Assembly: GCF_032930845.1 (NCBI RefSeq)
Contig: NZ_CP136758.1
Coordinates: 1,751,001-1,815,000, forward strand
From: Parvularcula sp. LCG005
GTDB taxonomy: Bacteria; Pseudomonadota; Alphaproteobacteria; Caulobacterales; Parvularculaceae
Reading direction: 5' to 3'
Length of the DNA stretch: 64,000 nucleotides
Shown here: piece after piece, positions 11,094 to 36,327 of the stretch
Layout: each line of letters begins with the position of its first letter
How positions within the stretch are numbered: the stretch's first letter is position 1
The notes under the pieces: generated by a model
Told to the model about the DNA's origin: nothing
Seen by the model: the letters and a program-made list of their open reading frames with translations, nothing else
Database searches by the model: none
Program-made: the position numbers and the translations under genes

Positions 11094-13463
11094 TTATTCA
11101 TCAAACCGAAGGGTGACGGGGTCACCGGCTGTCAGCTGAACCTGACGAACCCCGCCGTCAAAGACCTCATTGCGAAGCTGCACCGTCGCCGTCTGGCCGG
11201 AGACCAGCTGCACACGGGTCAGCTGCCCATCGGCCCAATCCAAATCGACTGTCACATCACCCCGCGCGCGCAGGCCGGTGATGGAACCGGTTGGCCATGC
11301 GGACGGCAATGCCGGCAGCAGATGGATCTCATCATGCTGGCTCTGCAGCAGCATTTCGCCCACACCAGACGCTGCGCCGAAATTGCCGTCAATCTGGAAC
11401 GGCGGGTGTGTATCGAACAGGTTCGGCAGTGTACTGCCGGTCAACTGTTCCTGAAGCAGCTTGTAGGCGCGGTCACCATCGTGAAGACGGGCCCACAGAT
11501 TGATCTTCCAAGCCTTGCTCCAGCCGGTGCCGCCATCGCCGCGGGCGTTCAGGATGGTTCTGGCCGCATCCGCCAGTTCCGGCTCATTGGCGACATCGAT
11601 CTGGCGTCCGGGATGCAGCGCATAAAGCTGGGAGATGTGACGATGCTCATTGTCCTGCTCATCAAGATCTTCCTTCCACTCCTGTAGCTGCCCCCATGAG
11701 CCAATTTTCAGCCCCGGGTCCATCTGCATCCGCTTGGCGGCCAGCGTGTCGGCGAAGGCGTCATCACCCAGGATACGGGCCGCCTCTTCCGTGTTGCGGA
11801 ACAGGTCATAGACCAGCTGTTGCGACATCGCCGCGCCAAGAACGAAAGGTCCGTGTTCGGGGCTGAAGCTTGGCGCGACCACGAGCTTGCCGTCGCGTGG
11901 ATCCTCGACCAGCGCGGTCAGCCACGGTTGCGCAGCGCCTTTCATGATCGGGTAGACGCTTTCAAGCACTGTCTTGTCCGCCGTATACCGATAATGATCG
12001 TAGAGATGCTGGCTGAGCCACGCTGCGCCTTCGGGTTGCCAGAAGGCGGTGGGCCATTCAATTAGCCCAGTAAACCCGTAGATATTGGTGTTGAGAAAGA
12101 CCGCCCATCCCTCATCCGACCCCAGAATTTTCTGGGCAGAGGCTTGTCCCGCCTCGCTCAATTGGCGCGTGAACTCGATGAACGGCGGAAGCGTCTCAGA
12201 CAGGTTCAGGAAGTCAGCGGGCCAATAGTTCATCTGCAAATTGACATTGACGTGGTAATCGCCGTTCCACGGCGGAGTCTTGGAATTGTTCCAGACGCCC
12301 TGCAGATTGGCTGGCAGTGATCCTTCGCGCGATGAGGATATCAACAGATAACGTGCATAAGCGAAATATAGCGCCTCAAGATAGCGCTGATCTGGTTCGG
12401 TCAAGGTCAAATAGGACGCAAGCAGATCATCGGTCATATGCTCTGTCGCATGCTGACCAATATCAAGGTCCACACGGTCCGCAATTGTGCGGTAGTCATC
12501 TGTGTGATGCGCCAGAACGTCGGTCCAACCGGCCGAACGAGCCGCGGTTGCACGGTCCACAACGCCCGCTAGAGGGTCATCGCCCCGATAGGAAGGATAG
12601 TCGGGGGCGTAGTTGGTGCCCGCCGCAACAAAGACCGTGACGTAGCTCGCGTTCGTGACCTGCAGCCCATCGCCGTTTGGCGTGACGTCGCCATCACTGT
12701 CCACTTCCAGATGGGTGGCATAGACGAGGCCGTTATCATCAAGCGCGCCCTGTGCCGTCAGCCCTGTGGATGAGCTATCAAAACTCACTGTACGGTTGTC
12801 GGGAATATCGAATGAAATGCTTGCCGATACGGGTGGACCATCGATCTCGTAACGGGCAACGATGACCTGGTCCGGAAAGCTGGCAATATATCGCTGACTG
12901 AACGATCGATCGCCAACATCGTACGCTACGGTTGCCATGGCATCATCCAGGCTCAGCTCGCGGCGATAGTTCGTCACATTGCTATCGCCCAGACCGAAAT
13001 CCACAACGACTTCACCAAAGCTCTGATAATGTCCGTAGCCTGTCATATTCTGGCCAAGACGCTCAGCGGCCTCTTCCGGCGTCATTGGTCCATTTTCGAT
13101 GATGTCCGCCGTCACCGCCTTGACCTCATCGGCAAGAGACCCTTCCGTCAGCCCGAAATTATACCCTTCCTGCGAGCCCGGCCCACCAGTCCACAGCGTC
13201 TTCTCATTGAATTGAAGACGGTCAGTAGATGGCGCGCCCGTTACCATCGCGCCCATTGCCCCATTGCCGATAGGCAGACCGTTGGGCTCCCAATCGGCCG
13301 CTGGTTCATCATATTGAAGTCGCAATAACGGCAGGTCTCTTTCGACGGGTCCGGCTTGAGCCGGCGCCGCGACAGGGTCTTGTGCCGCGCTCTTCTTAAC
13401 GTCCGGCGACTGGCCACAGGCGCAAAGCGCGATGAGGGCTGCAGAAAGGTAAAGGGTTTTCAT
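11094..13463 (-). CDS. GH95 alpha-L-fucosidase, lipoprotein
   Basis: A 789-residue family 95 glycoside hydrolase, an inverting 1,2-alpha-L-fucosidase family active on the fucosyl-galactose end of xyloglucan side chains and host glycans. The N terminus is a lipoprotein signal (LCAC, Cys16), so it is probably tethered to a membrane facing the periplasm. The GH95 N domain starts at about 46 (LRLQYDEPAADWEPNGLPIG). The asparagines that activate water in this family are in HVNVNLQMNYW (about N406, N408), the acid is in SFSPEHG, and FQIDGNFG holds the conserved Asp. Its start overlaps the FAH hydrolase stop as ATGA with GAGGAG upstream: it is the last gene of the fucose operon. Confidence 0.95.
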   Translation of the reverse strand: MKTLYLSAALIALCACGQSPDVKKSAAQDPVAAPAQAGPVERDLPLLRLQYDEPAADWEPNGLPIGNGAMGAMVTGAPSTDRLQFNEKTLWTGGPGSQEGYNFGLTEGSLADEVKAVTADIIENGPMTPEEAAERLGQNMTGYGHYQSFGEVVVDFGLGDSNVTNYRRELSLDDAMATVAYDVGDRSFSQRYIASFPDQVIVARYEIDGPPVSASISFDIPDNRTVSFDSSSTGLTAQGALDDNGLVYATHLEVDSDGDVTPNGDGLQVTNASYVTVFVAAGTNYAPDYPSYRGDDPLAGVVDRATAARSAGWTDVLAHHTDDYRTIADRVDLDIGQHATEHMTDDLLASYLTLTEPDQRYLEALYFAYARYLLISSSREGSLPANLQGVWNNSKTPPWNGDYHVNVNLQMNYWPADFLNLSETLPPFIEFTRQLSEAGQASAQKILGSDEGWAVFLNTNIYGFTGLIEWPTAFWQPEGAAWLSQHLYDHYRYTADKTVLESVYPIMKGAAQPWLTALVEDPRDGKLVVAPSFSPEHGPFVLGAAMSQQLVYDLFRNTEEAARILGDDAFADTLAAKRMQMDPGLKIGSWGQLQEWKEDLDEQDNEHRHISQLYALHPGRQIDVANEPELADAARTILNARGDGGTGWSKAWKINLWARLHDGDRAYKLLQEQLTGSTLPNLFDTHPPFQIDGNFGAASGVGEMLLQSQHDEIHLLPALPSAWPTGSITGLRARGDVTVDLDWADGQLTRVQLVSGQTATVQLRNEVFDGGVRQVQLTAGDPVTLRFDE

Positions 13464-14314
13464 GATTGCTCCTCATACGCCACAACAAGCTGATGTTGCT
13501 CCCCCAGCCCATCAATACCCAGTGCCATACGGTCACCGGCATTGAGAAAGACGGGCGGCTTTTGACCGAGACCAACGCCGGGCGGCGTACCGGACGAAAT
13601 GATATCCCCCGGCTCGAGCGTCATGAACCGGCTGATATAGGAAACAAGGAACGCTGGACCGAAAATCATCGTCTTTGTCGATCCATCCTGATACTGATGG
13701 CCATTGACCTTGAGCCACATGCCAAGAGACAGCGGATCAGGCACTTCATCTGGGGTCACAAGCCACGGGCCGATTGGACCGAAGGTGTCGCATCCCTTCC
13801 CCTTCATCCACTGGCCGCCCATTTCGATCTGGAATGCGCGCTCCGAAATGTCGTTGATGACGCAATAACCTGCGACATGGTTCAACGCGTTGGCCTCCGA
13901 TACGTGCCGGGTTGTCTTGCCAATGACAATGCCCAGCTCGACCTCCCAGTCCATCTTTGTTGAGCCGAGGGGCTTGATGACATCGTCATTCGGACCACAG
14001 ATTGATGACGTCGCCTTGGCAAAAAGGATGGGCTCGGTGGGCGGCTCGGCCCCGGTCTCAGCCGCGTGATCTGCATAATTCAGACCGACACAGATGAATT
14101 TCGGCACATGCCCCACACAGGGGCCGACGCGCTCCGTCATCGGGATGACTGGAAGGGTCGAAAGATCAACGCTGGCAAGGGCTCGGAGGTTGTCAGGATC
14201 GAGATCCGAACCGGCCAGATCTGTGACGTGCCCGCTTAAATCTCGCCATTTTCCGTCAGCATCAACGACCGCTGGTCGCTCCTGTCCGGGCGCTCCAACA
14301 CGCAGGAATTTCAT
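13460..14314 (-). CDS. FAH-family 2,4-diketo-3-deoxy-L-fuconate hydrolase
   Basis: A 284-residue fumarylacetoacetate-hydrolase-family enzyme. The metal site is seen in DWEVELGIVIGK and ISERAFQIEMGG, and the family segment SGTPPGVGLG is near the C terminus. In the oxidative L-fucose route this fold splits 2,4-diketo-3-deoxy-L-fuconate into pyruvate and L-lactate. The assignment to fuconate rather than rhamnonate rests on context: SDR, dehydratase, lactonase, fucP and alpha-fucosidase share the transcript. A GAGGAC ribosome site precedes the ATG. Confidence 0.88.
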   Translation of the reverse strand: MKFLRVGAPGQERPAVVDADGKWRDLSGHVTDLAGSDLDPDNLRALASVDLSTLPVIPMTERVGPCVGHVPKFICVGLNYADHAAETGAEPPTEPILFAKATSSICGPNDDVIKPLGSTKMDWEVELGIVIGKTTRHVSEANALNHVAGYCVINDISERAFQIEMGGQWMKGKGCDTFGPIGPWLVTPDEVPDPLSLGMWLKVNGHQYQDGSTKTMIFGPAFLVSYISRFMTLEPGDIISSGTPPGVGLGQKPPVFLNAGDRMALGIDGLGEQHQLVVAYEEQS

Positions 14315-14335
14315 GGCTTGTCCTCTTTCAAGTCG

Positions 14336-15067
14336 TCAGTTTGACCAGGCACCGTCTATGATGGCGGATGTGCCCGTTACGAATGCTGCGTCATCGCTCG
14401 CCAGATAAGTGGCCAGGCCCGCGATCTCTTCTGCCTTCCCGAGACGGCCCATGGGCTGTCTGGAAACGAAGGCTTTCATTGCAGCCTCATAATCGCCGGT
14501 GTCTTTGAGACGTTGCCGCAGGGAAGGCGTATCGATGGTTCCCGGACAGATGGCGTTGCAACGGATATTCCTGTCAACGTAATCAGCCGCGACCGCCTTT
14601 GTCATGCCGATGACCGCCGCCTTGGTCACGCTGTACGCAAAGCGATTTGGCACGCCTTTGATTGAACTGGCGACAGATGACATATTGATGATCGATCCGC
14701 CCCCAGCCGAAATCATGCCCGGCAGAAATGTACGGATCATCCGGTACATGCTGGTGACATTGATGTCACAGGAGCGTGACCAGGCGTCTTCATCTGTCTC
14801 CAGAATGGCGCCCGCGTGGACCCACCCTGCACAATTGAACAAAATATCGATATTCCCGGCACGCTGATGCGCCTCAGCGATACTGTCCGGAGACGTCACA
14901 TCCAGATGAAACGCATCGGCAAAACCGTGGTCAGAAAGACCTTGAGCGTTCACATCAGTCGCGATGACTTCTGCGCCTTCCGCCGCGAAACGCTCCGCCG
15001 TTGCCAGACCGATTCCCTGCGCCGCCGCGGTGATGAGGGCGCGCTTGCCCGCTAGCCGTTTACTCAT
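14336..15067 (-). CDS. SDR 2-keto-3-deoxy-L-fuconate dehydrogenase
   Basis: A 243-residue short-chain dehydrogenase with the cofactor motif ITAAAQGIGLA at about 11-20, NCAG near residue 77, the catalytic Ser in NMSSVASS and the Tyr-Lys pair in FAYSVTKAA. It closely resembles the BDH2/2-keto-3-deoxyfuconate dehydrogenase branch and would oxidise 2-keto-3-deoxy-L-fuconate at C4 with NAD. The ATG at 15067 lies two bases past the dehydratase stop; longer readings are unlikely. The chain ends SAIIDGAWSN, normal for the family. Confidence 0.9.
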   Translation of the reverse strand: MSKRLAGKRALITAAAQGIGLATAERFAAEGAEVIATDVNAQGLSDHGFADAFHLDVTSPDSIAEAHQRAGNIDILFNCAGWVHAGAILETDEDAWSRSCDINVTSMYRMIRTFLPGMISAGGGSIINMSSVASSIKGVPNRFAYSVTKAAVIGMTKAVAADYVDRNIRCNAICPGTIDTPSLRQRLKDTGDYEAAMKAFVSRQPMGRLGKAEEIAGLATYLASDDAAFVTGTSAIIDGAWSN

Positions 15068-15068
15068 C

Positions 15069-16277
15069 TCAACGCGCTCCTGCAGCCGTAGGCAGGCATG
15101 CCGGCCCGATCGGTTCAAATGATTTATAGGTCAGCAGAAACTCCTGATGCCCCAATGCCTCGGATGCGGTCTGTTGGCCGCGGGCCGTATTGACGACGCA
15201 GTCGTAGATTTCCGATCCCACATCTTCGAGTGTGGCGTCCGTTTCCAGAATACGCCCGGCGTCAATATCCATGTCTTCCGTCAGCTTGCGGTATGTTTCC
15301 GGATTTGCGCAGATCTTGATGACCGGCGATATGGCTGAGCCAACGACGGATCCACGACCTGTCGTGAACAGAACAAGATGGGCGCCACAGGCGATCATCT
15401 CGACGATTTCAGCGTTGTCGGCAATATTCGGAAAGCCAAAACGCGGCTCGCCATCGGGCACCACGTCGAGCAGATAAAGTCCCGGTCCCGGGGGCACGTC
15501 ACCCGGCTTGATAATGCCGCTGATCTTGGACGAGCCCGACTTGGCGTAGGCCCCCATGGATTTCTCTTCGATCGTCGTCAGGCCACCATCCGCATTGCCT
15601 GGCGCAAAGCTGCCAAAGCCCAGTGTACTGTAATATCGCTCCGCCTTTTCAACGGACTCGCGGATAAATGCGCCGAGCTCAGGCGTCAGGGCCCGATCCT
15701 CCATGATCGCCTCGCAACCGATCAGCTCCCCGGTCTCTTCGAAAATACACGTGGCGTCCTCAGCAACCAGTTGATCAAAGCAGCGTCCAACCGCCGGGTT
15801 CGCCGTAATACCGCTTGTCCCATCAGAACCACCGCAGATCGTGCCGACAATCAGCTCACTGACATCCATATCCACACGCTCGGTCTGCGCTGTCGCCGCT
15901 GCGCGCGTCCGCCTGACAGCCTCGACGCCAAGATCAATGGTCTTGCGCGTTCCGCCGCTCTCCTGAATCACCAGTAGCTCCGCTGGACGACCGCTTGCTT
16001 CGACCGCCCGAAGAAGGCCGTTGCGCTGAAAGCTTTCACACCCCAGAGACACCAGGACCACAGACCCCACATTGGGATGGGTGCACAACGCCTTCATCAA
16101 GCGATTGGCATACTGATTAGGAAAACATCCCGGAAAGCCGATCAGATGGACATCGGGATCGTTCGTTGCGCTGACGATCTGTCGCGCCACATGGTGGGCA
16201 CATTCAACAAGATACGCCACCACCGTCACATCGCGGATGCCCTTGCGACCATCCTGTCTTAAATACCCTTGAAACAT
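15069..16277 (-). CDS. UxaA-family sugar-acid dehydratase, large (catalytic) subunit
   Basis: A 402-residue C-terminal-type subunit of the altronate/galactarate dehydratase family (UxaA/GarD_C). Family segments seen are GFPGCFPNQYANR, GTICGGSDGTSGITANPAVG, the FTTGRGSVVGSAISPVIKICANP segment (near 300) and conserved cysteines expected to hold the metal or iron-sulfur site. It starts within the stop of the small subunit (TAATG). In this operon it fills the place of L-fuconate dehydratase, which in the classical pathway is an enolase-superfamily enzyme. That substrate is inferred from neighbours; altronate is less likely because no uronate genes are present. Confidence 0.87.
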   Translation of the reverse strand: MFQGYLRQDGRKGIRDVTVVAYLVECAHHVARQIVSATNDPDVHLIGFPGCFPNQYANRLMKALCTHPNVGSVVLVSLGCESFQRNGLLRAVEASGRPAELLVIQESGGTRKTIDLGVEAVRRTRAAATAQTERVDMDVSELIVGTICGGSDGTSGITANPAVGRCFDQLVAEDATCIFEETGELIGCEAIMEDRALTPELGAFIRESVEKAERYYSTLGFGSFAPGNADGGLTTIEEKSMGAYAKSGSSKISGIIKPGDVPPGPGLYLLDVVPDGEPRFGFPNIADNAEIVEMIACGAHLVLFTTGRGSVVGSAISPVIKICANPETYRKLTEDMDIDAGRILETDATLEDVGSEIYDCVVNTARGQQTASEALGHQEFLLTYKSFEPIGPACLPTAAGAR

Positions 16278-16615
16278 TATGAACCGTCCTGCGCGTCACC
16301 GCGGTCGTGTGTTGAAATATACTGACTTGCCATATTGTGCGTGTGAAGATGGTCACCGCGTTTGACGTCATGGGTCACGATGCCGATAGGAGCACCGTAT
16401 TTCACGACTTCCTCACCCATCTTCATATCCTGCCGCGCGATTTTATGTCCCGAGCCAATCCGGTTCGGCATCTCGAACGTCTCGGCATCGACCAGAATTA
16501 CCTGCCCTGCCTCGATCGATGTCGGCAGGAGAACCACATTATCGGTCGGGTGGAGCAGAATTGTTCGCACCGGAACAACGTCAGAGACAGGGACTGTACC
16601 CGTTCTTGTCATCAC
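16277..16615 (-). CDS. UxaA-family dehydratase, small SAF-domain subunit
   Basis: A 112-residue protein matching the N-terminal SAF domain of altronate/galactarate dehydratases, which in many species is fused to the large subunit. It shows the core strand IGSGHKIARQDMKMGEEVVKYG and the end GDHLHTHNMAS, whose histidines belong to the family signature. Two starts are possible: GTG at 16615 (overlapping the upstream stop as GTGA) or ATG at 16612 (TGATG). Together with the next gene it forms the split dehydratase. Confidence 0.87.
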   Translation of the reverse strand: MMTRTGTVPVSDVVPVRTILLHPTDNVVLLPTSIEAGQVILVDAETFEMPNRIGSGHKIARQDMKMGEEVVKYGAPIGIVTHDVKRGDHLHTHNMASQYISTHDRGDAQDGS

Positions 16616-17682
16616 ATCAGTTCTCCACTCAAACCCGGAATTGCGGCACGCGGATTAATGAGACCCTTTGTTCGCAACTTATCCCAGGCCTTGTTGCTAA
16701 TCGGCTGCCGCAAGGCATCGCCTGCTGCACGCACTTCTTCAATCGAGGCGAAACCCGCCAGCACATTGCCAACGGCGGGGTGAAAAAACGGAAATTGTAG
16801 TGCTGCCCGATGAAGCGGTACGCCAAAATCATGCAGCGTCCGACGCAGCGCATTTGCCTTTTCAGCAATTTCTGCCGGCACGTCGCCGTAATTGTAATAG
16901 GCGCGACCTTCGCCCTTTGTCGCAAGGATGCCGGAATTGAACGGCCCGCCTACGACCAGTTCGATACGCGCATCGAGGCAATGCGCCAGAAAATCGATCG
17001 CTTCTCGCTGCTCAAGCAACGTGTATCGTCCAGCCAGAAGAAACACATCCATGTCGAACAGCACCATGGCATTGCGACACACCTGCCACTCATTCGCGCC
17101 AAGACCGATTGCCTTGACCGCGCCCGAGGATTTCAGCTGCTGCATCGCGCGATAGCCGTTCTTGGCAAAGGCCTCCCAATGGCGCTGGGCCTCAGCGCCG
17201 TGCGTTGCCTCTCCCAGATCATGGGCATACAGAATATCGACTGTCGAGACACCAAGCCGCTCAAGGCTCTGCTCGAAAGAGCGCATGATTCCGTCATAGG
17301 TATAATCAAATACCGGCTCAAAAGGGTAGCCATTGAAGAAGCCGTGGCGCAGTCCCGTCGCCTTCGCCGGGTCAATAGGCTCAAGCCGACGCCCGACTTT
17401 GGTAGAGATCGTCAACTCATCACGATTGACCGAGGCAACGAAACGGCCAAGACGTTCTTCACTCAAACCGAAGCCGTAATGCGGTGCTGTATCGAAATAG
17501 CGCATGCCAAGACGATGCGCTTCACGCATTGTCTCATCGGCCGTCCAGTCCGTTATCTCCGTATACAGATTTCCGATAGGCGCGCAGCCAAAGCCGAGCC
17601 GGTCAATGGACGGCTCATCGCTCTTTCCCCGGAATATTGGCAGGCGATTGGCCTGGGGACGGATTGGTGAAGATGTGGTCAG
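16612..17682 (-). CDS. Aldo/keto reductase, probable L-fucose dehydrogenase (CTG start)
   Basis: A 356-residue aldo/keto reductase of the L-fucose/D-arabinose dehydrogenase type, expected to oxidise L-fucose to L-fuconolactone with NAD(P). The catalytic set is D in YFDTAPHYG, Y in the same segment, K in STKVGRR and H in LYAHDLGEA. The first ATG in frame (17529) would remove the N-terminal beta strand and glycine loop. The frame stays open upstream and encodes DRLGFGCAPIGNLYTEIT, the expected family N terminus, but has no ATG, GTG or TTG back to a stop at 17695. The best start is CTG at 17682, which overlaps the iclR stop as CTGA with GAGGGG 8-9 bases ahead. ATC at 17685 is the alternative. 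Confidence 0.85.
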   Translation of the reverse strand: MTTSSPIRPQANRLPIFRGKSDEPSIDRLGFGCAPIGNLYTEITDWTADETMREAHRLGMRYFDTAPHYGFGLSEERLGRFVASVNRDELTISTKVGRRLEPIDPAKATGLRHGFFNGYPFEPVFDYTYDGIMRSFEQSLERLGVSTVDILYAHDLGEATHGAEAQRHWEAFAKNGYRAMQQLKSSGAVKAIGLGANEWQVCRNAMVLFDMDVFLLAGRYTLLEQREAIDFLAHCLDARIELVVGGPFNSGILATKGEGRAYYNYGDVPAEIAEKANALRRTLHDFGVPLHRAALQFPFFHPAVGNVLAGFASIEEVRAAGDALRQPISNKAWDKLRTKGLINPRAAIPGLSGELM

Positions 17683-18506
17683 GATGGCGCCCCCTCACCC
17701 AGTGAAGGGTTGCCATCAAGGGCTTTCGTTATGGCCGCTACTGCCTCCAGCAGGAATTCACGGCTTTCATCGATCGTCGCGCGCGGCATTTTGACGGCCA
17801 GATAGGGTACGGTCAGTGCAGCAACGGCGCCGCGAGGCCCCATGACCGGTGCCGAGATATCGGTCACCCCATTGACGAATTCACTGGGCGCCATGGCATA
17901 ACCACGCTCAAAGGTCTTGGCCGACGCACGGACAAACCTGGCGATCTCGTCCACATTGGCGGATTCGGAAAAATGCTCACGCCACCGGGCTTTGGTCTCT
18001 TCAGGTTGACCGCCATACAGCATCAGACCTGAATTGGAGTCGATAAGACGTCGGCGGTAACCAACGCGTACAGAAAACCCAAGGTCGCCCGTGCTTTCAA
18101 TCCGGGCAACGACGACAATCTGATCACCAGACGCGACGACCAGATGGCACGACTGTCCAATCTTTTGCACGAGTATCTGCATGACCGGCAAAGCGGACGC
18201 GATCAGCGTCTTCATGGGCGCGCGAGACAGGCCGAGAGTGAACAGGCGGTCGGTCAGGACGTACCCCTCGCCTGCCTGATCCACAGCGATATAGCCGCGA
18301 TACTCAAGCACCTGCAGCATACGGAAGATTTCGCTGAGTGATTTGCCGCATTTTTCAGCGATCTGGGTTGATGTCATGGGCTGCGCCGCGGCCGACATCA
18401 GTTCAAGAATATCGAGGCCTTTCTCGAGCGCTGGGGCACGATATTTCGGCTCGGCTGTGGGGCCGACCAGGCTAAGTTGAGGCTTATTGGGCGAATTGCC
18501 AGACAT
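17679..18506 (-). CDS. IclR-family transcriptional regulator
   Basis: A 275-residue IclR-type regulator with an N-terminal winged helix (about 25-85; LDILELMSAAAQPMTSTQIAEKCGKSLSEIFRMLQVLE) and the C-terminal effector domain, including SCHLVVASGDQIVVVARIES and DISAPVMGPRGAVAALTVPY. It sits inside the fucose operon between the lactonase and the aldo/keto reductase, and is the obvious candidate to sense a fucose pathway intermediate and control fucP and the upstream TonB receptor. AGGA lies 7 bases before the ATG. Confidence 0.93.
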   Translation of the reverse strand: MSGNSPNKPQLSLVGPTAEPKYRAPALEKGLDILELMSAAAQPMTSTQIAEKCGKSLSEIFRMLQVLEYRGYIAVDQAGEGYVLTDRLFTLGLSRAPMKTLIASALPVMQILVQKIGQSCHLVVASGDQIVVVARIESTGDLGFSVRVGYRRRLIDSNSGLMLYGGQPEETKARWREHFSESANVDEIARFVRASAKTFERGYAMAPSEFVNGVTDISAPVMGPRGAVAALTVPYLAVKMPRATIDESREFLLEAVAAITKALDGNPSLGEGAPS

Positions 18507-25479: not shown

Positions 25480-25594
25480 TTTACGGCACAACGCTCGTCC
25501 CATAGCGCTTCTGCGCGCGTCGATAAAATAACTGCTTTGACAGTCAAGGCGTGCGCTGATTTTTGAAGATCACGGATGATCAGGGGAGGCTGTG

Positions 25595-26965: not shown

Positions 26966-26999
26966 CAGGATAGTGCCAGGCCACCACGTGAGAGTGTGC

Positions 27000-27275: not shown

Positions 27276-27336
27276 CGCCCATCTCCGCGCTGCGACTATC
27301 ACAGCGAACATCGGCCAATCCGACGAACAGGCCAAA

Positions 27337-27366
27337 TTGACGCCTTCGACCGCTGCCCCATATACC
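27337..27366 (+). promoter_or_regulatory. Sigma-70 promoter of the glutaredoxin-MauE gene
   Basis: TTGACG at 27337-27342 and TATACC at 27361-27366, 18 bases apart, lie 26 bases upstream of the ATG at 27392. The -10 element is overlapped by the CsoR-type operator, giving a simple block-and-release arrangement. Confidence 0.65.
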
Positions 27367-27377
27367 CCTATAGGGTA
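27363..27377. promoter_or_regulatory. CsoR operator
   Basis: TACCC-CTATA-GGGTA is an inverted repeat in the form typical of CsoR boxes (TACCC-N5-GGGTA). Its centre CCCTATAGGG is a perfect 10-bp palindrome. It covers the -10 element of the divergent gene next to csoR itself. Confidence 0.75.
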
Positions 27378-27391
27378 AGCAGGAGGCGCTT

Positions 27392-28455: not shown

Positions 28456-31389
28456 TTATTCCATCGACACGTCGACAGCTGCGCCTGTGTAGGTGATAGT
28501 GCTGTCGGGCTCAGCATCCATCGCAAAGCCATCATCGCCGTCCGGTGAAACGAAGCGAACATGAATGACACGCTCTTCCGGCATGCTCTGAAGTTCGCCT
28601 TCAACCGCACCGATCGTCAGTGTGCCTGTCTCCTCGCTCCACGTCATTGGTATACGAACGTAGGCTTCGTCCTCATAGTCATAAGTCAGGCCATCATCTT
28701 CATACAACGAGAATGAGGCATCAGCGCCTGTATAGACATAGATGGTCAATTCACCATTCGTGTCGTCCGCCGTGGACTGAATGTCCGGCCCCATAGGCAC
28801 GATCGAACCCTCACGCACATAAAGCGGCATGCGGGCGAGTGGCGCGTCGGCAGTGACCGTCTGGCCACCGTCAAAATGCTCACCGCTTTCGAAATCATAC
28901 CAGCCAGACCCTGCAGGCAGATAGACATCCCGTTCACGCGCTTTGAATTCGTAGACTGGCGCGACGAGGAAGCTGGAGCCGAACAGGTACTGGTCATTGA
29001 TGTCCCAGACCTTCTTGTCGTCTTCGAAGTCCATCACGAGGCCGCGCATCATCGAACCATCTTTGAGGGTCGTGTCTGCTGCCAGCGTGTAGATGAACGG
29101 CATCAGGCGGTAACGCAGCTTGTCGTAATAGACCATCGATTCATAGGGATCTGACCCTTCAGGCGCGAGGTTGTAGATCTCGCGGAAAGGAAATTCCCCG
29201 TGACTGCGGAAGAGCGGGGTGAACGCACCGAGCTGGAACCAGCGGGTGTTCAGTTCACGCCATTCTTCGATATGCGCCGGATCTTCATCCGTATAGCGCT
29301 GCTCGACGGCAAAACCGCCAATATCGAATGTCCAGTTTGGCACGCCGGACATTGAGAAGTTCACACCGGCAGCAACCTGTTCCTTCAGGTCTTCCCAGCG
29401 CGCAACCACGTCCCCGGACCATGCGGAAACGCCGTAGCGCTGGATGCCGGGGAATGCCGAACGGGTCAGGATGAAGACCCGCTCATTCGGGTCCGAACCC
29501 TCGCGCTCACCTTCGTAAACGGCCTGAGCGTTCACGAGGGCGAAAGAGTTGAAGTACTGGGCACCGGGACCCATGGCCGTTGGGCCAATCCGCAGTGCCC
29601 GTTCCCGATGCGACAGGTTCGAGTGGAGGTCAGGTTCCACAGCGTCCATCCACCAAGCGTCAAAGCCTTTCGAATCCAGCGCTTCTTTCATTTGAGACCA
29701 GAACAGCTCGCGCGCCTCGGCACTGTACGGATCATAGAAGGAGTTGCGATACCCCTGCCCGACCCAGTCACGAGTATCCATCATCAACTGCCGCTGATAA
29801 ATGGCACCGATTTCCTCCAGCGCTTTCGCATTGGCCGTAGTCGGATAGAATTTCGGCCACACCGAAATCATGATCCGCGCGTTCATCTCATGAACGGCGT
29901 CGACCATGGCAGCGGCATCGGGGAAGCGCTCGAGATCAAATTTGTGGCTGCCCCATTCCTTTTCCGGCCAATAGAACCAGTCGAGGACAATGTTATCGAT
30001 CGGGATCTTCCGGTCACGATAGCCTTTCAGGGCGTCCAGCAGTTCATCCTGGGTCGTATAGCGCTGGCGGCTCTGCCAGAAACCGTAGGCCCATTTAGGC
30101 AGCATCACCGACTCACCCGTCAGTGTACGGTACCCGGCAATGACGTCATCGATCTTGTCGCCATCAGCGGCCACGAAGTAATAGTCGATGACCTGTGCCA
30201 CGTCGGAGGCGAAGGAGAGGTCGTCCTGTTGTTCGGCGGGAAGCGGGTCGAGATGCTCGAGCCGGAAATAGCCATCATTGGCGATCCACTCGATCTCGAT
30301 ATCCTTGCTCTCACCCGCGACCATGTCGACATCGAAGGTGAAGTAATAAGGGTTCCAGTTCTGGCGCCACCGGTCGACAACGGTTTCGCCATCCACCTTG
30401 ATCGTCAGATAGGACGAACCATAGGCGCGGAATTTATGCGTGCCCGTTGTTTTGGCTTCCAGACCACCGGTCCAGACGACTTTCTCAGGACTTTCGGTGC
30501 CGAATGGCTCCGGGAAGACGTCGCGTACAGCCTCGCCGCTTGCATACTGGTCAGGAGGCAGGAACTGGTAGTCAGGATCCCGCTCGCGGGTTTCAGCCTG
30601 TACCTTTCCGTTCTCGTCGTAATAGCGGCCGGTCAGTCCGCCTTCCGATCCATCCTCACCGCGCACGATCAGCGTCTCATCCAGCGGCTGGAACGGACGA
30701 GGATCGCCAAAGCGGGTAATGGACGCGTTGTCCCACAGAATACCGTAATCGCCTGTCGAGGCCACAAACGGCATGGCGATGGAGATATTGTGCTGGGCCA
30801 GTTCCACGGTTTCGCCGGCCATGTTCATCTGGCCGTTTTGGTGCTGCCCCAGGCCGTAAAAGCCGGGTTCACCGACCGGCTGCCACGCCTGTTGAACCGA
30901 GTAGAACTGTTCGCCTTGCACCATTTTTGGTGTCATGACGCGGCGGTCTTCTGCCAGCAGTTCATTGCCATCGCCATCGAGGAAACGAACCTTGCCGTCA
31001 GCACGCGAGATTTCCACGCGCAGGCCCTCAGTCGAGAGACTGGCAACATTGCGCCCCTTACGGACGTTATATTCAGGTCGGGCGGGGAAATCTGTGACGA
31101 TCAGGCTTTCATCGCGGACGAACTGACCTTCAGGGTCCGCCGAAACGCGAACGATCCCCTTGGCGACGACTTCCACACGAACGACGGCGGCGTCGTTGCT
31201 ACGGGGAGTAACGATCAGGCCGCCTTCAATATCCTCGATGCCCGGTGCGCGCCGGACCTGTTTGACTTGACCGTCCGTGCCGTACACATCGTTCTTTGAC
31301 TGCCCTTGGGCGTAGGCGGGCAGTGCGCCCATGGCGAGGGCAGCAACTGCCAGTGCCGATGCCGATACCAGCTGTTTGCGAATAGTCAT
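28456..31389 (-). CDS. GH31 alpha-xylosidase with PA14 insert
   Basis: A 977-residue family 31 glycoside hydrolase with an N-terminal signal peptide (to about PAYAQ). The N-terminal beta domain is interrupted at about 250-385 by a PA14 carbohydrate-binding module (GLTGRYYDENG to DGYFRLEHLDPLP). The catalytic barrel has the nucleophile D582 in WWMDAVEPD and the acid/base D660 in SAWSGD. The overall build matches xyloglucan alpha-xylosidases such as Cellvibrio Xyl31A, which remove the xylose at the non-reducing end of xyloglucan oligosaccharides. Coupled to the GH35 gene by ATGA with GGAGG ahead. Possibly periplasmic. An alpha-glucosidase function is less likely given the neighbours. Confidence 0.94.
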   Translation of the reverse strand: MTIRKQLVSASALAVAALAMGALPAYAQGQSKNDVYGTDGQVKQVRRAPGIEDIEGGLIVTPRSNDAAVVRVEVVAKGIVRVSADPEGQFVRDESLIVTDFPARPEYNVRKGRNVASLSTEGLRVEISRADGKVRFLDGDGNELLAEDRRVMTPKMVQGEQFYSVQQAWQPVGEPGFYGLGQHQNGQMNMAGETVELAQHNISIAMPFVASTGDYGILWDNASITRFGDPRPFQPLDETLIVRGEDGSEGGLTGRYYDENGKVQAETRERDPDYQFLPPDQYASGEAVRDVFPEPFGTESPEKVVWTGGLEAKTTGTHKFRAYGSSYLTIKVDGETVVDRWRQNWNPYYFTFDVDMVAGESKDIEIEWIANDGYFRLEHLDPLPAEQQDDLSFASDVAQVIDYYFVAADGDKIDDVIAGYRTLTGESVMLPKWAYGFWQSRQRYTTQDELLDALKGYRDRKIPIDNIVLDWFYWPEKEWGSHKFDLERFPDAAAMVDAVHEMNARIMISVWPKFYPTTANAKALEEIGAIYQRQLMMDTRDWVGQGYRNSFYDPYSAEARELFWSQMKEALDSKGFDAWWMDAVEPDLHSNLSHRERALRIGPTAMGPGAQYFNSFALVNAQAVYEGEREGSDPNERVFILTRSAFPGIQRYGVSAWSGDVVARWEDLKEQVAAGVNFSMSGVPNWTFDIGGFAVEQRYTDEDPAHIEEWRELNTRWFQLGAFTPLFRSHGEFPFREIYNLAPEGSDPYESMVYYDKLRYRLMPFIYTLAADTTLKDGSMMRGLVMDFEDDKKVWDINDQYLFGSSFLVAPVYEFKARERDVYLPAGSGWYDFESGEHFDGGQTVTADAPLARMPLYVREGSIVPMGPDIQSTADDTNGELTIYVYTGADASFSLYEDDGLTYDYEDEAYVRIPMTWSEETGTLTIGAVEGELQSMPEERVIHVRFVSPDGDDGFAMDAEPDSTITYTGAAVDVSME

Positions 31390-33065
31390 TGTTCTTCCTC
31401 CGATTTGGCCATTGCTCGGCCTTCCTGTTCTACCTCAGTCTCGTCAGGGACAAGTGTCACCCGCAAGACCTCACCACGATCGGTGAAATTCAGTCCGTAG
31501 TCTGTCTGATCGCCGTTCCACATACGGCGGAACTGCCAGTCACCGTTTTTCCATTCGACCTCTTCTGCAGACAGGAAGGTGAAGCCACCCTCCTTGCGAT
31601 CGAATGTGACACGAGAGCCGAGCCCCGTAACCAGGAACTGATGATCGTCCAGTTTCGCGATGAGCACACCGGCATTAACGTCTGGTTCCCGGTTCAAATT
31701 TTCACCCATAAACGTCCAGTCGGGCATGGCAAACTGCCACAGATCATAGTCGATCCGCGCCGTCCATTCCCCAAGGTCCAGGGTTTGCGGTGCCGAGTCA
31801 TCCGGCCGTGCCGCGCCCCAGACGTCGCTTTCAAATGAAAGCCGTGCCCATTCATCGGCGAAGGGAGCGACGATGCCGAACACATCCGCAAATGGCTCAA
31901 TAACCTCTGCTGAGGTGACGTTGCCGCCCAATGGATAATTGCCGTAGCCGGAGTAATCCATGCCGAATGGCGCAAAGCCAATGGCCCGCTGCCCCAGCGA
32001 AGCGAAGAAATATCGCGCGAAATCATCACGGTTTCCCGTCTCAGAAACAAACAGTGGGTTGTTCGCCGCCTGATAATTCCTGAGCGCCGCCATGTAGCTT
32101 TCATGATCCGACTTGTAGATGTCCGGCGACAGAAGTGACAGGGCTGGCGCCGCCGCCTGCCAGACCTCCAGCATGTTGTCGGTCGGGCCGCCAGAAGCGT
32201 AGGAGGACGGATCAGTATCCTTCAGCGGATCGCGGATAGCGGCATTGGTGTACATGGGCAAATCGTAGACATCCTTGCCCGCCTGAGCGACCTTGCCGAC
32301 ATAATCGCCAATGGACCAAGCGTGAAACGCCTCATCAGCATCGTCGCCAAAGACTTCAACCCACGTCCCGGGTTCCTTGCCAAGGGCCGTGGTGAGACGC
32401 GACGGCACTTCACCGTCAAACGCCGCCTGTGCCGCCGCGCCGTAATCGCGGACGGAGCCATAGGTCCCGGTCTCGTTCTGTACCTGGACCATGATGACCG
32501 TCTGGTCCCGATCCTTCTTTTTCAGATAGGTCAGCAGTTCACGGAAGGCTTTCTTGTCCGCCTCGAGCGTTTCATTGCCATAGGGTGACAGGGCATAGGA
32601 AGGCGTGCCGTCATTCTTGATGAGGCGCGGGAAACGCTCGGTATCCAGCTTGACCCATGCGGGCGTGTATTTGGGGCTCGTATTCTTCCATGTCCCGAAC
32701 CACAGAAGCACAACCCGCACATCGCGCTCACGTGCCTGAGGGATCAGGGCGTCGAGGTAGGAGAAATCGAATTTGCCTTCCTCTGGCTCAATCTGCTCCC
32801 AAGCAACCGGGATCATGAGCGTATTGGCGTGCAATTCTTCGACGGCAGGCCAGACTTCAGGCAAAACTGCTGGATAGTTTGAAGAATTGTGCGCCTGCGC
32901 TGCGATCATCAGGAACGGCTTGCCGTCGACGAAGAGCGCGTGACGACCGTCCTGTGACCTGATCTCTGACAAATCCTGCGCCATGGCGGACGACATCATG
33001 GCCGCCATGCTTGCGCCGATTAGGAAGGGTCGCAGGGATGTTCGGACTATCTCGTGAATTACCAT
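31386..33065 (-). CDS. GH35 beta-galactosidase (xyloglucan type)
   Basis: A 559-residue family 35 glycoside hydrolase with a signal peptide ending SSAMA. The barrel opens KPFLMIAAQAHNSSNYP; the acid/base is E198 in VQVQNETGT and the nucleophile E342 in FVSETGNRDD. The C-terminal beta domain is of the short DUF5597 type, as in Cellvibrio Bgl35A, which strips galactose from xyloglucan oligosaccharides. First intact gene of the GH35-GH31 pair; GAGGAAC precedes the ATG. Upstream is the remnant of a further exported protein that once led the operon. Confidence 0.94.
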   Translation of the reverse strand: MVIHEIVRTSLRPFLIGASMAAMMSSAMAQDLSEIRSQDGRHALFVDGKPFLMIAAQAHNSSNYPAVLPEVWPAVEELHANTLMIPVAWEQIEPEEGKFDFSYLDALIPQARERDVRVVLLWFGTWKNTSPKYTPAWVKLDTERFPRLIKNDGTPSYALSPYGNETLEADKKAFRELLTYLKKKDRDQTVIMVQVQNETGTYGSVRDYGAAAQAAFDGEVPSRLTTALGKEPGTWVEVFGDDADEAFHAWSIGDYVGKVAQAGKDVYDLPMYTNAAIRDPLKDTDPSSYASGGPTDNMLEVWQAAAPALSLLSPDIYKSDHESYMAALRNYQAANNPLFVSETGNRDDFARYFFASLGQRAIGFAPFGMDYSGYGNYPLGGNVTSAEVIEPFADVFGIVAPFADEWARLSFESDVWGAARPDDSAPQTLDLGEWTARIDYDLWQFAMPDWTFMGENLNREPDVNAGVLIAKLDDHQFLVTGLGSRVTFDRKEGGFTFLSAEEVEWKNGDWQFRRMWNGDQTDYGLNFTDRGEVLRVTLVPDETEVEQEGRAMAKSEEEQ

Positions 33066-33154
33066 CAGTTCCTCGCCTTAATTCGCAAATCTTATAAATT
33101 TGCTTTTATCAGTAAAAATTTTTTCTGACCAGCAGCTTTGCCTCTACGCGTCCT

Positions 33155-33310
33155 TCAGCGCTCTGTATCTGAAATCGCGGTATCGCACATCTCCCTCACC
33201 CATCGCGAAATAGGCCGGACGCAGACTGAGGCTCTTGCCGCCACGGGCAAGGCGCCGGCGCCGACACCGGCCAGCACTGCGGATTTCAGAAGGTCACGCC
33301 GGGTGCTCAT
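33155..33310 (-). pseudogene. Remnant of a Tat-exported protein gene
   Basis: An ATG at 33310 with GGAG 9 bases ahead opens a 51-codon frame beginning with a twin-arginine signal (MSTRRDLLKSAVLAGVGAGA, ending LPVAARA). The frame then ends at TGA 33155. From about codon 27 a second frame on the same strand reads LRPAYFAMGEGDVRYRDFRY and stops at TAG, and this looks like the true C terminus of a protein. The simplest reading is a gene that lost its middle and its frame, leaving start and end. It led the GH35-GH31 operon, so the lost protein probably belonged to xyloglucan use. The family of the lost part is not identified. Confidence 0.6.
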
Positions 33311-33356
33311 CTATTTTCTCCGAATAAAGATCAATTAAACAGGAAACGGCTGAACG

Positions 33357-33569: not shown

Positions 33570-33938
33570 ATCGACATAATTGTTCGGTATTCAACTTTCC
33601 TCGTTGGCTTCTTGCCTCAGACGAAGCAGTGCAGGCAAGTCAAATTGGCGTCAGTGTCAATGAAGAGGCCTTGTTGGGCGTTGTTTAGATCGCCCGAAGC
33701 GCCGCCTTAGCGAAGCGCGAATCCGCTTCGCACCACGCCTGAACCGGCTCGCAACAATTCCGCCCTGAAGCTAGGCTAACGGCGTCAAGATGGCTTGGTT
33801 TGAACAGACACTTCACGATAGCGTGGATCGACGTGCAGCGTTTTTGAGCAAGCGCCAACAAGGCGGCGCCATGCAGACCTGCAAATGAGACAAGAATGGC
33901 AGGCATGCCACACCATCGAACTGACGGAGGAACAGGAC

Positions 33939-35177
33939 ATGAATAGATTCTACGCGCTCACCTGCGCTGCTGCACTCGCGTTGACAGCAATGGGTCTCGC
34001 CGCCTCTTCTCAGGCCGCGGAGCTCGAACGATCAAGCGCCATGGCGACGGTCCAGGCGTTTCCGGACTACAATACCGAGCCGGCCGCTCCTGACGCCACC
34101 GGCATGGACAGCGACGCCAAAGTCATGGCGAAGCGCATGCATCTTGGCTGGAATCTGGGCAACACGCTTGAGGCGACGGGTGGCGAAACCGCGTGGGGCA
34201 ACCCTTTGACACCCCCGGCCCTGTTCAAAATCGTCAAGGAGAGTGGCTTTGATGCTGTCCGACTGCCAGTATCCTGGGATCAGTATGCTGATCAGGATAC
34301 GGCAGAAATTGAGGCTGCGTGGCTGGACCGTGTCGAAACCGTGGTTCAGGCAGCGCTGGATGCAGACCTTGCCGTTGTGATCAATATTCACTGGGATGGC
34401 GGCTGGCTGGAGGAGCACTTGCTGCCGGCGTCGGCTGACACGGTTGATCAAAGACAGCGCGCCTATTGGCAGCAGATCGCGACCAGATTTCGGGACTATG
34501 ACGAGCGGCTGGTTTTCGCCAGCGCGAACGAGCCGAATGTTGATACGGCTGAACAGATGACTGTTCTTGCGCGCTATCATCAGACCTTCGTCGATACCGT
34601 TCGCGCAACGGGCGGTCGCAATGCCTATCGCAACCTGATTGTTCAGGGACCTCGGACCGATTTCGAGAGAACGAACGATCTGTGGACGGACGTGCCAACT
34701 GACAGCGTGGCCGACAGGCTGATGATGGAGTTGCATTTCTACACGCCGTACCAGTTCACCCTGATGGTCGAGGACCAGGATTGGGGACAGATGTTCTGGT
34801 TCTGGGGCAAGGAAAATCATTCCCGCAAAAAGCCCAGTCGCAATTCCAGCTGGGGCGAAGAAGACCAGGTTGATGATCTGTTCGACAAGGTCGAGCGCCA
34901 ATTCGTGGACAAAGGCATTCCTGTCATCATCGGTGAATATGCCGCCATGCTGCGCGGCAATCTGAAAGGCAAAGATCTCGAACTGCATCTTGCCTCGCGC
35001 GCCGATTACCTGGAGTTTGTAACAAAAGCGGCCATGGAGCGCGGCATGGTTCCGTTCTATTGGGATGCTGGCGGCCAGGTGGGCCAGGGTTTTGGCCTGT
35101 TCGACCGCGAAAACCTCAAGGTCACCGACGAGGCTGCGTTGAACGCCATCATGGACGGAGCAGCCGCGGCGGAATAA
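33939..35177 (+). CDS. GH5 subfamily 4 endo-glucanase / xyloglucanase
   Basis: A 412-residue secreted enzyme; the ATG at 33939 gives a signal peptide ending ASSQA. The GH5_4 features are MHLGWNLGNTLEA, FDAVRLPVSWDQY, the subfamily mark NIHWDGGWLEEH (about 149-160), the acid/base E198 in FASANEPN, LHFYTPYQFT and the nucleophile E333 in VIIGEYAAM. Many GH5_4 enzymes are endo-xyloglucanases, which suits the GH31, GH35 and GH95 neighbours; mixed-linkage glucanase or cellulase activity is possible. No carbohydrate-binding module is present. It is followed after 34 bases by a two-component pair. Confidence 0.93.
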   Translation: MNRFYALTCAAALALTAMGLAASSQAAELERSSAMATVQAFPDYNTEPAAPDATGMDSDAKVMAKRMHLGWNLGNTLEATGGETAWGNPLTPPALFKIVKESGFDAVRLPVSWDQYADQDTAEIEAAWLDRVETVVQAALDADLAVVINIHWDGGWLEEHLLPASADTVDQRQRAYWQQIATRFRDYDERLVFASANEPNVDTAEQMTVLARYHQTFVDTVRATGGRNAYRNLIVQGPRTDFERTNDLWTDVPTDSVADRLMMELHFYTPYQFTLMVEDQDWGQMFWFWGKENHSRKKPSRNSSWGEEDQVDDLFDKVERQFVDKGIPVIIGEYAAMLRGNLKGKDLELHLASRADYLEFVTKAAMERGMVPFYWDAGGQVGQGFGLFDRENLKVTDEAALNAIMDGAAAAE

Positions 35178-35211
35178 AGATGGCCGCCAAGATAACGGCC
35201 CAAAGGATTAG

Positions 35212-36327
35212 TTGCGGCAGGTGATGATCGCTCAACAGAAAATGCGGGCGCCTGCCGCGCTGCCCACGTCGTTTTCCAGTCTGGCCTTTCTGCCAAAGCT
35301 CTTTGTGCTGTGGACCGTGATCGGCGCAGTCTTGGCGCTGCCCAATATCATTCAGCTGTCTGAATGGATCAGCCTGCCAGCGAAGATCATCGAGGGATGG
35401 GCGTGGGCGCTGCTCACCTATCTTCTGCTCGTGATCGACCGTCGACTGTCACGGACGGGCTTGTCAGACCTGCGCCAGCTGATCGTGCTGGCATGTCTCA
35501 GCGTTCCATTCTCCTTTGCCTATGTGGGCATGGCAGGGCTATTTCTTTATCCGATCGATGCGGTCATCTGGAGCCCGATCAAGGCACCGGAATTCGCGCT
35601 ATACTATTTCATCGGTGGCTGGGTTCAGTACGCGGCCGTCGTTGGCGTAATGTGGGCGGTGAAATATCATCGCCGCCTGCTCGCAAGCCAGGTCGAAATC
35701 GGTCGTCTCGAAAAGCATATTCTTGAGGCCCGACTGAATGCCCTGCGCCTGCAGCTTGAGCCGCACTTCCTGTTCAACGCCCTCAACGCCATTTCCGCAG
35801 AAACGAGCAGAGACCCGCAGGCAACGCGGGACATGATCGGTAATCTGGCAGAGCTGTTGCGCCATTCTCTGGCGCACAAGGATACCAATGAGATCTCGCT
35901 CAAGGCGGAATTACGGCTCCTCGACCACTATCTGTCGATCCAGCGGCTGCGCTTCGGCGATCGCATCCGGTTTGACATCAACGTAGATAGCGCCGCGCTT
36001 AACGCCGTGGTGCCAGCCATGACGCTGCAGCCCATTGTCGAAAACGCGCTCCGCCATGGCGTTGAAAATCGTCTGTCGGGTGGTGTCGTTGAAATCGCTG
36101 CGGAGAAGAAAGGCGGGCATGTTCATGTCACCGTTAGCGACAATGGCGTCGGTCTTCCTCGCGACTGGTCGATGTCGAAATCTTCCGGGCTGGGCCTGAG
36201 TGTTACGCGGGAGCGACTTGCGGCCCTTTATGGACGCCGTGCGGAAGAACTTTTCTCAATATCCAATCGTGCTACGGAAGGCACTATTGTGCATATCGAA
36301 CTCCCCGATCCTGATGTCAGCCTCTGA
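35212..36327 (+). CDS. LytS-type sensor histidine kinase
   Basis: A 371-residue membrane kinase of the His_kinase (LytS/YehU) family. The N-terminal half has about four membrane helices (26-150). The phospho-acceptor H185 is in LEPHFLFNALNAIS, followed by the ATPase domain with VENALRHGVENR (N box), SDNGVGLP and SGLGLSVTRERL. The start is uncertain: TTG at 35212 has AAGGA 4 bases ahead; GTG 35221 and ATG 35224 are alternatives. It overlaps the response regulator gene by 14 bases and is a standard partner for a LytTR regulator. Location behind GH5_4 suggests a glycan-related or envelope signal. Confidence 0.92.
   Translation: MRQVMIAQQKMRAPAALPTSFSSLAFLPKLFVLWTVIGAVLALPNIIQLSEWISLPAKIIEGWAWALLTYLLLVIDRRLSRTGLSDLRQLIVLACLSVPFSFAYVGMAGLFLYPIDAVIWSPIKAPEFALYYFIGGWVQYAAVVGVMWAVKYHRRLLASQVEIGRLEKHILEARLNALRLQLEPHFLFNALNAISAETSRDPQATRDMIGNLAELLRHSLAHKDTNEISLKAELRLLDHYLSIQRLRFGDRIRFDINVDSAALNAVVPAMTLQPIVENALRHGVENRLSGGVVEIAAEKKGGHVHVTVSDNGVGLPRDWSMSKSSGLGLSVTRERLAALYGRRAEELFSISNRATEGTIVHIELPDPDVSL

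Follow-up and report, generated by a model that had tools for sequence, protein, structure and literature searches.

Comparison with described systems

Two described proteobacterial loci are closest to the one analyzed here. The xyloglucan locus of Cellvibrio japonicus (PMC4285296) contains genes of the glycoside hydrolase (GH) families GH31, GH35 and GH95 and a TonB receptor, with GH31 and GH35 co-transcribed, and the xyloglucan utilization locus of Xanthomonas citri (PMC8245568) comprises an endo-enzyme, GH31, GH35, GH95, receptors and adjoining genes for monosaccharide catabolism. In a 64-kb stretch of the Parvularcula sp. LCG005 genome (hereafter the window: bases 1,751,001-1,815,000 of a 3.08-Mb single contig, numbered from its first letter), the same hydrolase families and a TonB-dependent receptor (TBDR) are found together with genes for the oxidative breakdown of L-fucose. 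Here, GH31 and GH35 overlap, GH95 ends a run of fucose genes that includes an IclR-family regulator, and a GH5 gene lies near, whereas the available part of the C. japonicus report names neither an endo-xyloglucanase nor fucose catabolism; compared with X. citri, GH5 and fucose genes are present instead of GH74, CE20 and xylose genes. Neither of the two compared loci, as far as the available parts of the reports go, includes fucose breakdown, whereas the window brings together branch-sugar breakdown, a candidate regulator and polymer-cutting enzymes. No description of such a joining was found in the open-license literature, as judged by titles and the beginnings of abstracts.

We read this locus, with a probability of about 0.62, as a composite of two modules. 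The xyloglucan module would consist of GH5 and GH35-GH31, and the fucose module of the receptor/halogenase pair, fucP, the lactonase, IclR, an aldo-keto reductase (AKR), a two-subunit dehydratase, a short-chain dehydrogenase/reductase (SDR), an FAH-family hydrolase and GH95, with the IclR protein acting as a fucose regulator, FucR. Judged by its genes, this predicted fusion of a xyloglucan-type locus with an oxidative fucose cassette is a variant of known systems.

The fucose part has precedents of its own. The oxidative (non-phosphorylating) L-fucose route 3, as presented in the available part of PMC11199699, shares the dehydrogenase, lactonase, dehydratase, SDR and FAH-type hydrolase; in the window, these lie with genes for a TBDR, a halogenase, GH95 and xyloglucan enzymes, the dehydratase is of a split UxaA type, and no mutarotase was recognized among the scanned cluster genes. 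A FucR of mat bacteria has predicted sites on oxidative L-fucose loci, including one in a Rhodobacteraceae genome (PMC5507952); the accessible text names no xyloglucan genes and gives neither the family nor the motif of this FucR, so the likeness is by description. The FucR of Campylobacter jejuni is an IclR-family repressor of an L-fucose operon and binds the promoter of that operon (PMC12566272); L-fucose itself gave no release in electrophoretic mobility shift assays, no glycoside hydrolases are named in the portion of the source at hand, and the comparison is again by description, not orthology. FUR1 of Trichoderma reesei, a fucose-responsive regulator that switches on polysaccharide-degrading enzymes (available part of PMC12370193), is fungal and serves as an analogy only.

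Xyloglucan-type hydrolases

Protein families were assigned with Pfam and NCBIfam profiles, and relatives of solved structure were identified with phmmer against the Protein Data Bank (PDB). The genes for the predicted GH31 alpha-xylosidase (28456-31389) and GH35 beta-galactosidase of the DUF5597 type (31386-33065), both on the minus strand, share 4 nt of their reading frames. GH31 matches 7kmp (XacXyl31, 1062.8 bits) and 2xvg (Xyl31A, 1035.9 bits) and carries a PA14 domain (residues 304-376; 23.3 bits, slightly below the Pfam cut-off of 24), its NCBIfam matches being under their cut-offs. The best match of GH35 is 3u7v, followed by 5jaw/4d1i (Bgl35A) and 7kmn (XacGalD), and it scores 475.1 bits with NF051902 against a cut-off of 500. 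The GH5 gene (33885-35177, plus strand) is predicted to encode a secreted CjGH5D-like endo-xyloglucanase, of GH5_4 by its closest match (5oyc, Cel5D, E 2.4e-151), and has a Sec-like signal, judged by eye. GH95 (11094-13463, minus strand), a predicted alpha-1,2-L-fucosidase with Pfam GH95 domains, is most similar to 4ufc and then to 7kmq (XacAfc95); a lipobox-like ALCACGQ, also judged by eye, suggests a probable lipoprotein signal. None of the four reaches a curated NCBIfam cut-off. According to the available parts of the respective reports, the structures 7kmp, 7kmn and 7kmq belong to XacXyl31, XacGalD and XacAfc95 of X. citri (PMC8245568), 4d1i is CjBgl35A and 3u7v is a Caulobacter enzyme (PMC4285296); CjGH5D is a GH5_4 endo-xyloglucanase (PMC5816542). 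These matches support the assignment of GH31, GH35, GH95 and GH5 to xyloglucan-type hydrolases, with the closest solved enzymes derived largely from known xyloglucan loci. GH31, GH35 and GH95 are clustered with a TonB receptor, the combination by which proteobacterial xyloglucan utilization loci are recognized.

A preliminary description of this DNA had listed a secreted GH5_4 enzyme, GH35, GH31 with PA14, GH95, a TonB receptor and fucP, all of which the Pfam and NCBIfam profiles find where it placed them, with PA14 just under the cut-off. Its observation that the window lacks GH3 also stands: the 64 kb contain none, and all six GH3 matches in the complete genome fall outside this stretch. The end that it gave for the locus, 36327, is that of a LytS-type histidine kinase and not of GH5, and its gene list left out the flavin halogenase, the IclR regulator and the genes for a pyridoxal phosphate (PLP)-dependent decarboxylase, a CsoR-type repressor and a glutaredoxin-MauE fusion.

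A predicted oxidative L-fucose pathway

A packed run on the minus strand extends from GH95 (from 11094) through the FAH hydrolase (13460-14314), SDR (14336-15073), UxaA (15069-16277), SAF (16277-16615), AKR (16612-17529), IclR (17679-18506) and an amidohydrolase-family lactonase (18516-19370) to FucP (19367-20644). The genes overlap or are separated by at most about 21 nt, except for the 149-nt AKR/IclR gap, and the TBDR gene follows on the same strand 277 nt beyond FucP. GH95 sits within this run, on the same strand and overlapping FAH, as had been described; given the overlap and shared direction, it is presumably co-transcribed with the fucose genes. A terminator-like hairpin with a 12-pair stem and a T-rich tail lies just past GH95 (11061-11088, minus strand), in a scan that overall yielded 15 sites versus 14.8 in shuffles.

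The predicted L-fucose:H+ symporter FucP exceeds the cut-off of TIGR00885 (393.2 versus 280.4 bits), and the putative L-fucono-1,5-lactonase scores 200.6 bits with NF052480, under the cut-off of 400. The putative 2,4-diketo-3-deoxy-L-fuconate hydrolase of the FAH family has as its best PDB match 8gsr, an L-2,4-diketo-3-deoxyrhamnonate hydrolase (E 3.9e-91), and scores 412.6 bits with NF053535, under the cut-off of 500. The best solved relatives of the SDR, a predicted L-2-keto-3-deoxyfuconate 4-dehydrogenase, are 8xwk/8y11, the L-KDFDH of H. huttiense, for which the available part of PMC11199699 names the substrate residues Arg148, Arg192, Arg214 and Trp252; equivalents of all four are present. 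The putative L-fuconate dehydratase belongs to the UxaA/GarD family and is split into a 402-aa large subunit with GD_AH domains and a 112-aa SAF protein (Pfam SAF 28.1 bits, cut-off 21). The large subunit is 77 and 76% identical to those in the fucose loci of G001 (the genome of Amphiplicatus metriothermophilus, the organism from which the named locus L002 also comes) and G011, and the SAF subunit is likewise present in G001, G011, G510 and G511. A mutarotase in the gap between AKR and UxaA was considered and ruled out, the gene there being the SAF subunit.

The AKR (Aldo_ket_red), the putative L-fucose 1-dehydrogenase, has an intact core and, among solved structures, matches an L-galactose dehydrogenase best. 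Its frame is open to 17694, yet no ATG, GTG or TTG occurs upstream of the 305-aa open reading frame (ORF); the 5' region contains GGGGAAAGAG, a good ribosome-site-like sequence, and an ATG, but in a different frame. The homologues in L002/G001, G510 and G511 have a complete N-terminus, and the 5' end in the window looks frameshifted, either truly in the cell or by an assembly error. No L-fucose mutarotase was recognized among the scanned cluster genes, in a search that covered neither other small ORFs nor the remainder of the genome. The preliminary description had claimed all steps of oxidative fucose breakdown, including a UxaA dehydratase. Predicted enzymes for the route are indeed present, but the claim has to be qualified because the AKR lacks a normal in-frame start and no mutarotase was recognized; the putative dehydratase is there as well, in two subunits, the second encoded by the separate gene at 16277-16615.

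Recurrence of the joined locus

At E <= 1e-40, 5 of 62 genomes of the family have a GH95 relative, and GH35 of this type is found in 6 of 385 genomes of the class at E <= 1e-60, including the present one. We read 12 alphaproteobacterial xyloglucan-type loci. Eight of them have GH31 and GH35 (this one, G001, G011, G051, G073, G236, G332 and G386); the other four (L004, L007, L018 and L063) are named GH95 loci that also have GH35, with limited flanks. In G001, tblastn reveals one co-directional 14-gene run, TBDR-Hal-Hal-GH35-GH31-FucP-lactonase-IclR-AKR-SAF-UxaA-SDR-FAH-GH95 (Hal, halogenase). In G011, fucP and GH35-GH31 diverge from a single 742-nt gap, and GH95 adjoins FAH. A related joining with other fucosidases and dehydratases is seen in G073, from another family: GH31-GH35-GH74-like-IclR-TBDR-Hal-GH29-FucP-SDR-enolase-type dehydratase-SDR, where the SDR is 54% identical, GH29 scores 263.5 bits with Pfam and GH74 was judged by eye. 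The G073 dehydratase belongs to the enolase superfamily (Pfam MR_MLE) and is 62-66% identical to genes that accompany AKR, SDR, FAH and lactonase in G323, G303 and G112. In G386, the sole fucose-type gene is a 33% FucP-like one, and in L004 an enolase-type dehydratase; no fucose-pathway genes are found in the stretches read of G051, G236, G332, L007, L018 and L063.

The joined xyloglucan-fucose system that the preliminary description proposed is thus found again in two other genomes, G001 and G011, and partly in a third, G073. Of the 12 loci, only these two and the present one show the full joining, and two of the three closest relatives found for the receptor lie in fucose cassettes without GH31, GH35 or GH95 (see below). 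On the whole, its observation was right and its interpretation is partly supported by the genes.

A wider survey covered the best 80 of 574 GH95 relatives found, some of the loci ending at contig ends. In ten of these 80, the flanks hold at least three fucose-pathway genes; nine of the ten are from actinobacteria and one is from an alphaproteobacterium. Eight of the 80 have GH31 or GH35, six of these with a halogenase too; GH95, fucose oxidation and GH31/GH35 are all joined in one, L002. The pairing of GH95 with fucose oxidation is therefore not unique to the lineage studied here. GH95 also adjoins fucose oxidation genes in actinobacteria, namely Micromonospora, Plantactinospora and a strain of Micromonosporaceae (L011, L014, L017, L023, L026), where the joining seems to be a separate one. 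GH29 genes 52-58% identical to that of G073 (L112-L115, L118) lie near the GH31-GH35 pair in G236, G332 and G386, genomes in which no GH95 was found.

Receptor and halogenase

The TBDR (20922-23750, minus strand; TIGR01782, 702.5 bits) is divergent from a flavin-dependent halogenase gene (23914-25479, plus strand; PF04820, 658.4 bits). The closest PDB relative of the halogenase is 6frl (BrvH), and equivalents of K83, E349 and WxWxIP are present, that is, the catalytic Lys and Glu and the motif are kept. According to the available part of PMC5945002, BrvH is of the same type, with the same residues and motif; the gene in the window differs in sitting in a receptor/fucose cassette, which places this unexplained type of halogenase next to a defined sugar. 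PF04820 genes are numerous, with seven in this genome and at least one in 20 of the 21 entries searched (one genome counted twice).

A single other receptor match was found in the 62 genomes of the family at E <= 1e-150 (G001, 42%), whereas in the family of Gilvimarinus gilvus (Cellvibrionaceae in NCBI), searched with at most six candidates scored per genome, 3 of 144 genomes carry relatives of 64-65% identity at E <= 1e-200 (G454, G510 and G511). Each of these adjoins a halogenase. The order in G510 and G511 is TBDR-halogenase-FucP-lactonase-IclR-AKR-SAF-UxaA-SDR-FAH, with the halogenase 69-70% and UxaA 73% identical to those of the window. The 58 kb read contain no homologue of GH31, GH35 or GH95; one weak 28% GH5 match was seen in G511. 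In G454, GH95 lies ahead of TBDR-halogenase. Because the G510/G511 cassette stands without GH31, GH35 and GH95, we place the receptor and the halogenase in a fucose module, one that apparently moves between lineages and to which the xyloglucan enzymes would have been joined here.

It is conceivable, and we suggest it only tentatively, that the catalytically intact halogenase functions within this fucose import and oxidation cassette (TBDR-halogenase-fucP-...) and is inherited with it, its target being an aromatic partner of the receptor or glycan, and that the FucR of the cassette has taken over the xyloglucan enzymes, with fucose breakdown signaling plant cell wall. No open-license paper was found that pairs tryptophan/flavin-dependent halogenases with a TonB receptor, polysaccharides or glycoside hydrolases. 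Strong RNA folding (-138.4 kcal/mol, z -3.9) is predicted for the 281-nt stretch between receptor and fucP (20645-20925); its long stem is GC-rich, and a T tract is absent.

A predicted operator of the IclR regulator

The IclR-family gene (assigned by Pfam) is a candidate for FucR: it adjoins fucose genes in the present genome and in G001, G011, G010, G323, G303, G112, G510 and G511, and in part in G073. Palindromes were searched with mono-nucleotide and then with dinucleotide shuffles as controls. Discovery on the xyloglucan promoters of the relatives at width 14 yielded sites resembling TTTCAT..ATGAAA, with 1 of 10 dinucleotide shuffles scoring better, and searches on the relatives alone ended in different motifs at widths 16 and 18; for these reasons, the motif was trusted only after tests on further genomes. 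Counts of exact 4- and 5-nt dyads over ten promoters gave nothing in four or more of them.

We applied a matrix of five sites (this genome, G001 and G011) to seven loci whose IclR relatives are 38-43% identical (two loci given two gaps each). The best match falls beside IclR or in a fucose gap in all seven, a result that permuted palindromic matrices reach in 1 of 500 cases. A de novo search was restricted to IclR-upstream stretches of seven other genomes, with the sequences of the present genome excluded from training; these stretches, some of them a fixed length of about 300 nt and not verified gaps, were chosen after the five-site matrix matches had been seen. The same palindrome emerges at widths 12, 14 and 16. 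With the resulting matrices, the predicted operator in the receptor/halogenase gap, TTTCATATATGACA (23855-23868), ranks 1 of about 64,000 window positions at all three widths, scoring 19.8 bits at width 14 versus 11.8 for the next match. In G001, the GH35 site comes first and, at widths 14 and 16, the TBDR site second; in G011, the GH95 site is first and the fucP/GH35 site second. In each of the G510 and G511 cassettes, the top three matches of 20 kb are the receptor promoter, the Hal/fucP gap and the IclR/AKR gap (6 of 6). For permuted matrices, the mean is about 3, since the cassette gaps are AT-rich, and 6 is reached in 4 of 500 cases. G051, of the same genus and with GH31/GH35 72-73% identical, lacks an IclR match at E 1e-20, and such a site is likewise absent from it.

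The 3.08-Mb genome has two places within 2 mismatches of TTTCATATATGAAA, the receptor/halogenase site and one inside an ORF. In other genomes, second palindromes 18-19 nt away are common. The available part of PMC8222616, consulted after this spacing had been found, describes IclR-family sites spaced 18-22 nt and a group-1 half-site that resembles our palindrome, with a longer printed spacer. A weaker predicted operator, TTTTATCAGTAAAA (33104-33117), lies about 45 nt ahead of GH35 and ranks 2 in three matrix runs, the width-14 run and two that are not independent of it. Taken together, these placements suggest that the IclR protein is probably a FucR that controls receptor uptake and, more clearly in the relatives than here, the xyloglucan enzymes.

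Palindrome matches within 2 mismatches are found in 59 of the 62 genomes of the family, in many more than with a backward control. Given this excess, the palindrome could possibly mark a family-wide regulator, which we do not adopt as the principal interpretation; all four opened matches away from xyloglucan loci lie inside ORFs (longest-ORF rule). The surroundings of GH3 (five of six stretches, the sixth GH3, at 2076345, being inside one of them) contain no clear operator; one motif match overlaps a GH3 start codon, possibly by chance. In Gilvimarinus gilvus, TTTYATATAGTAAA is repeated upstream of GH95 and TBDR (L154, 8286 and 10862), perhaps as a related operator.

Proposed mechanism and alternative readings

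From gene content, signature residues, recurrence and motif placement, we infer substrates, IclR binding, transcription and an inducer as follows. GH5 would cut xyloglucan outside the cell, the receptor would take up fucosylated oligosaccharides, and GH31, GH35 and GH95 would remove xylose, galactose and fucose in the periplasm. L-fucose freed by GH95 would be imported by FucP and oxidized via the lactone to L-fuconate, 2-keto-3-deoxyfuconate, the 2,4-diketo acid and, finally, pyruvate and L-lactate. IclR, as FucR, would bind palindromes of the TTTCATATATGAAA type (elsewhere often in pairs 18-19 nt apart), answer to a compound of the fucose pathway, and control the receptor/halogenase promoter and, in its own lineage, GH35-GH31 or GH95. 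Such a scheme would provide a testable answer to the question, left open in the available part of PMC4285296, of which signal tells such bacteria of xyloglucan.

Several observations weigh against this composite reading. The full joining is present in only 3 of the 12 loci (this one, G001 and G011); in 75 kb of G073, there is no FAH and no AKR, and the lactonase match is just 21%; the nearest relatives of the receptor point to fucose rather than xyloglucan; and the start of the AKR is damaged. IclR relatives in G076, G244 and G292 (3 of 6 of one set, one of them on a 3.7-kb contig) have no fucose-pathway gene detectable with the queries used. As for the operator, the sites in the window are single, without a second palindrome, and with the de novo matrices from other genomes, the cleanest test, the GH35 site falls outside the top 4; in a leave-one-out run, a different string is best in this gap. 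No operator was found in the window before fucP or in the IclR/AKR gap (ranks 532 and 174), so that control of the fucose genes would require read-through from the receptor promoter past the strongly folding 281-nt stretch. A degenerate pattern matches this genome at three places with 0 mismatches and at 34 with at most one, most of them not inspected. Leaving out G011 yields a different, GC-rich motif, and support in the leave-one-out runs is weak at rank 5 for G051 and rank 6 for G073, the G073 site ranking third to sixth across tests. In G236 and G332, which have no IclR match in the 40 kb read, motif-like strings occur away from the xyloglucan genes.

Part of this evidence would fit two independent neighbors: the fucose cassette would serve fucosylated glycans other than xyloglucan, with a small xyloglucan module simply located nearby. 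The fucose cassette stands alone in G510 and G511, G051 has GH74-like-GH95-GH31-GH35 with no fucose genes in 50 kb, three genes without an evident link separate the modules in the window, and the operator of GH35 is weak here. Against it, G001 and G011 carry the modules joined, as does G073 partially and using different enzymes, and predicted operators precede GH35 and GH95 in relatives; we consider two independent neighbors rather unlikely. Improbable, in our judgment, is a pathway for L-galactose instead of, or besides, L-fucose, with GH95 as an L-galactosidase, even though the best solved AKR relative is an L-galactose dehydrogenase and 4ufc, the best GH95 match, is termed an alpha-L-galactosidase in the available part of PMC8245568. 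FucP exceeds its cut-off, the SDR has the equivalent of Trp252, which recognizes the C6 methyl of the fucose acid (PMC11199699, available part), and the polymorphic position of GH95 is His, not Thr, although PMC8245568, in the same part, found this position not decisive.

Neighboring genes

Between the halogenase and GH31 (25592-28192) lie the genes for the PLP-dependent decarboxylase, the CsoR-type metal-sensing repressor and the glutaredoxin-MauE fusion, the three whose link to either module is not evident. The GH35/GH5 gap holds a short ORF (33155-33310, minus strand) whose start resembles a Tat signal peptide and which is perhaps a gene remnant. The next gene after GH5, 34 nt past it on the same strand, encodes the LytS-type histidine kinase (35212-36327, plus strand; Pfam) and is followed by a LytTR response regulator (36200-37126, plus strand; Pfam); the pair (35212-37126) may sense something linked to GH5. 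The composition does not point to a recent insertion (GC3 of 0.58-0.77 across 25 genes). Further on (37274-49532), genes for a SulP permease, a metallo-beta-lactamase, a peroxiredoxin, a rhodanese and CusA/HlyD-type efflux form a possible sulfur/metal neighborhood.

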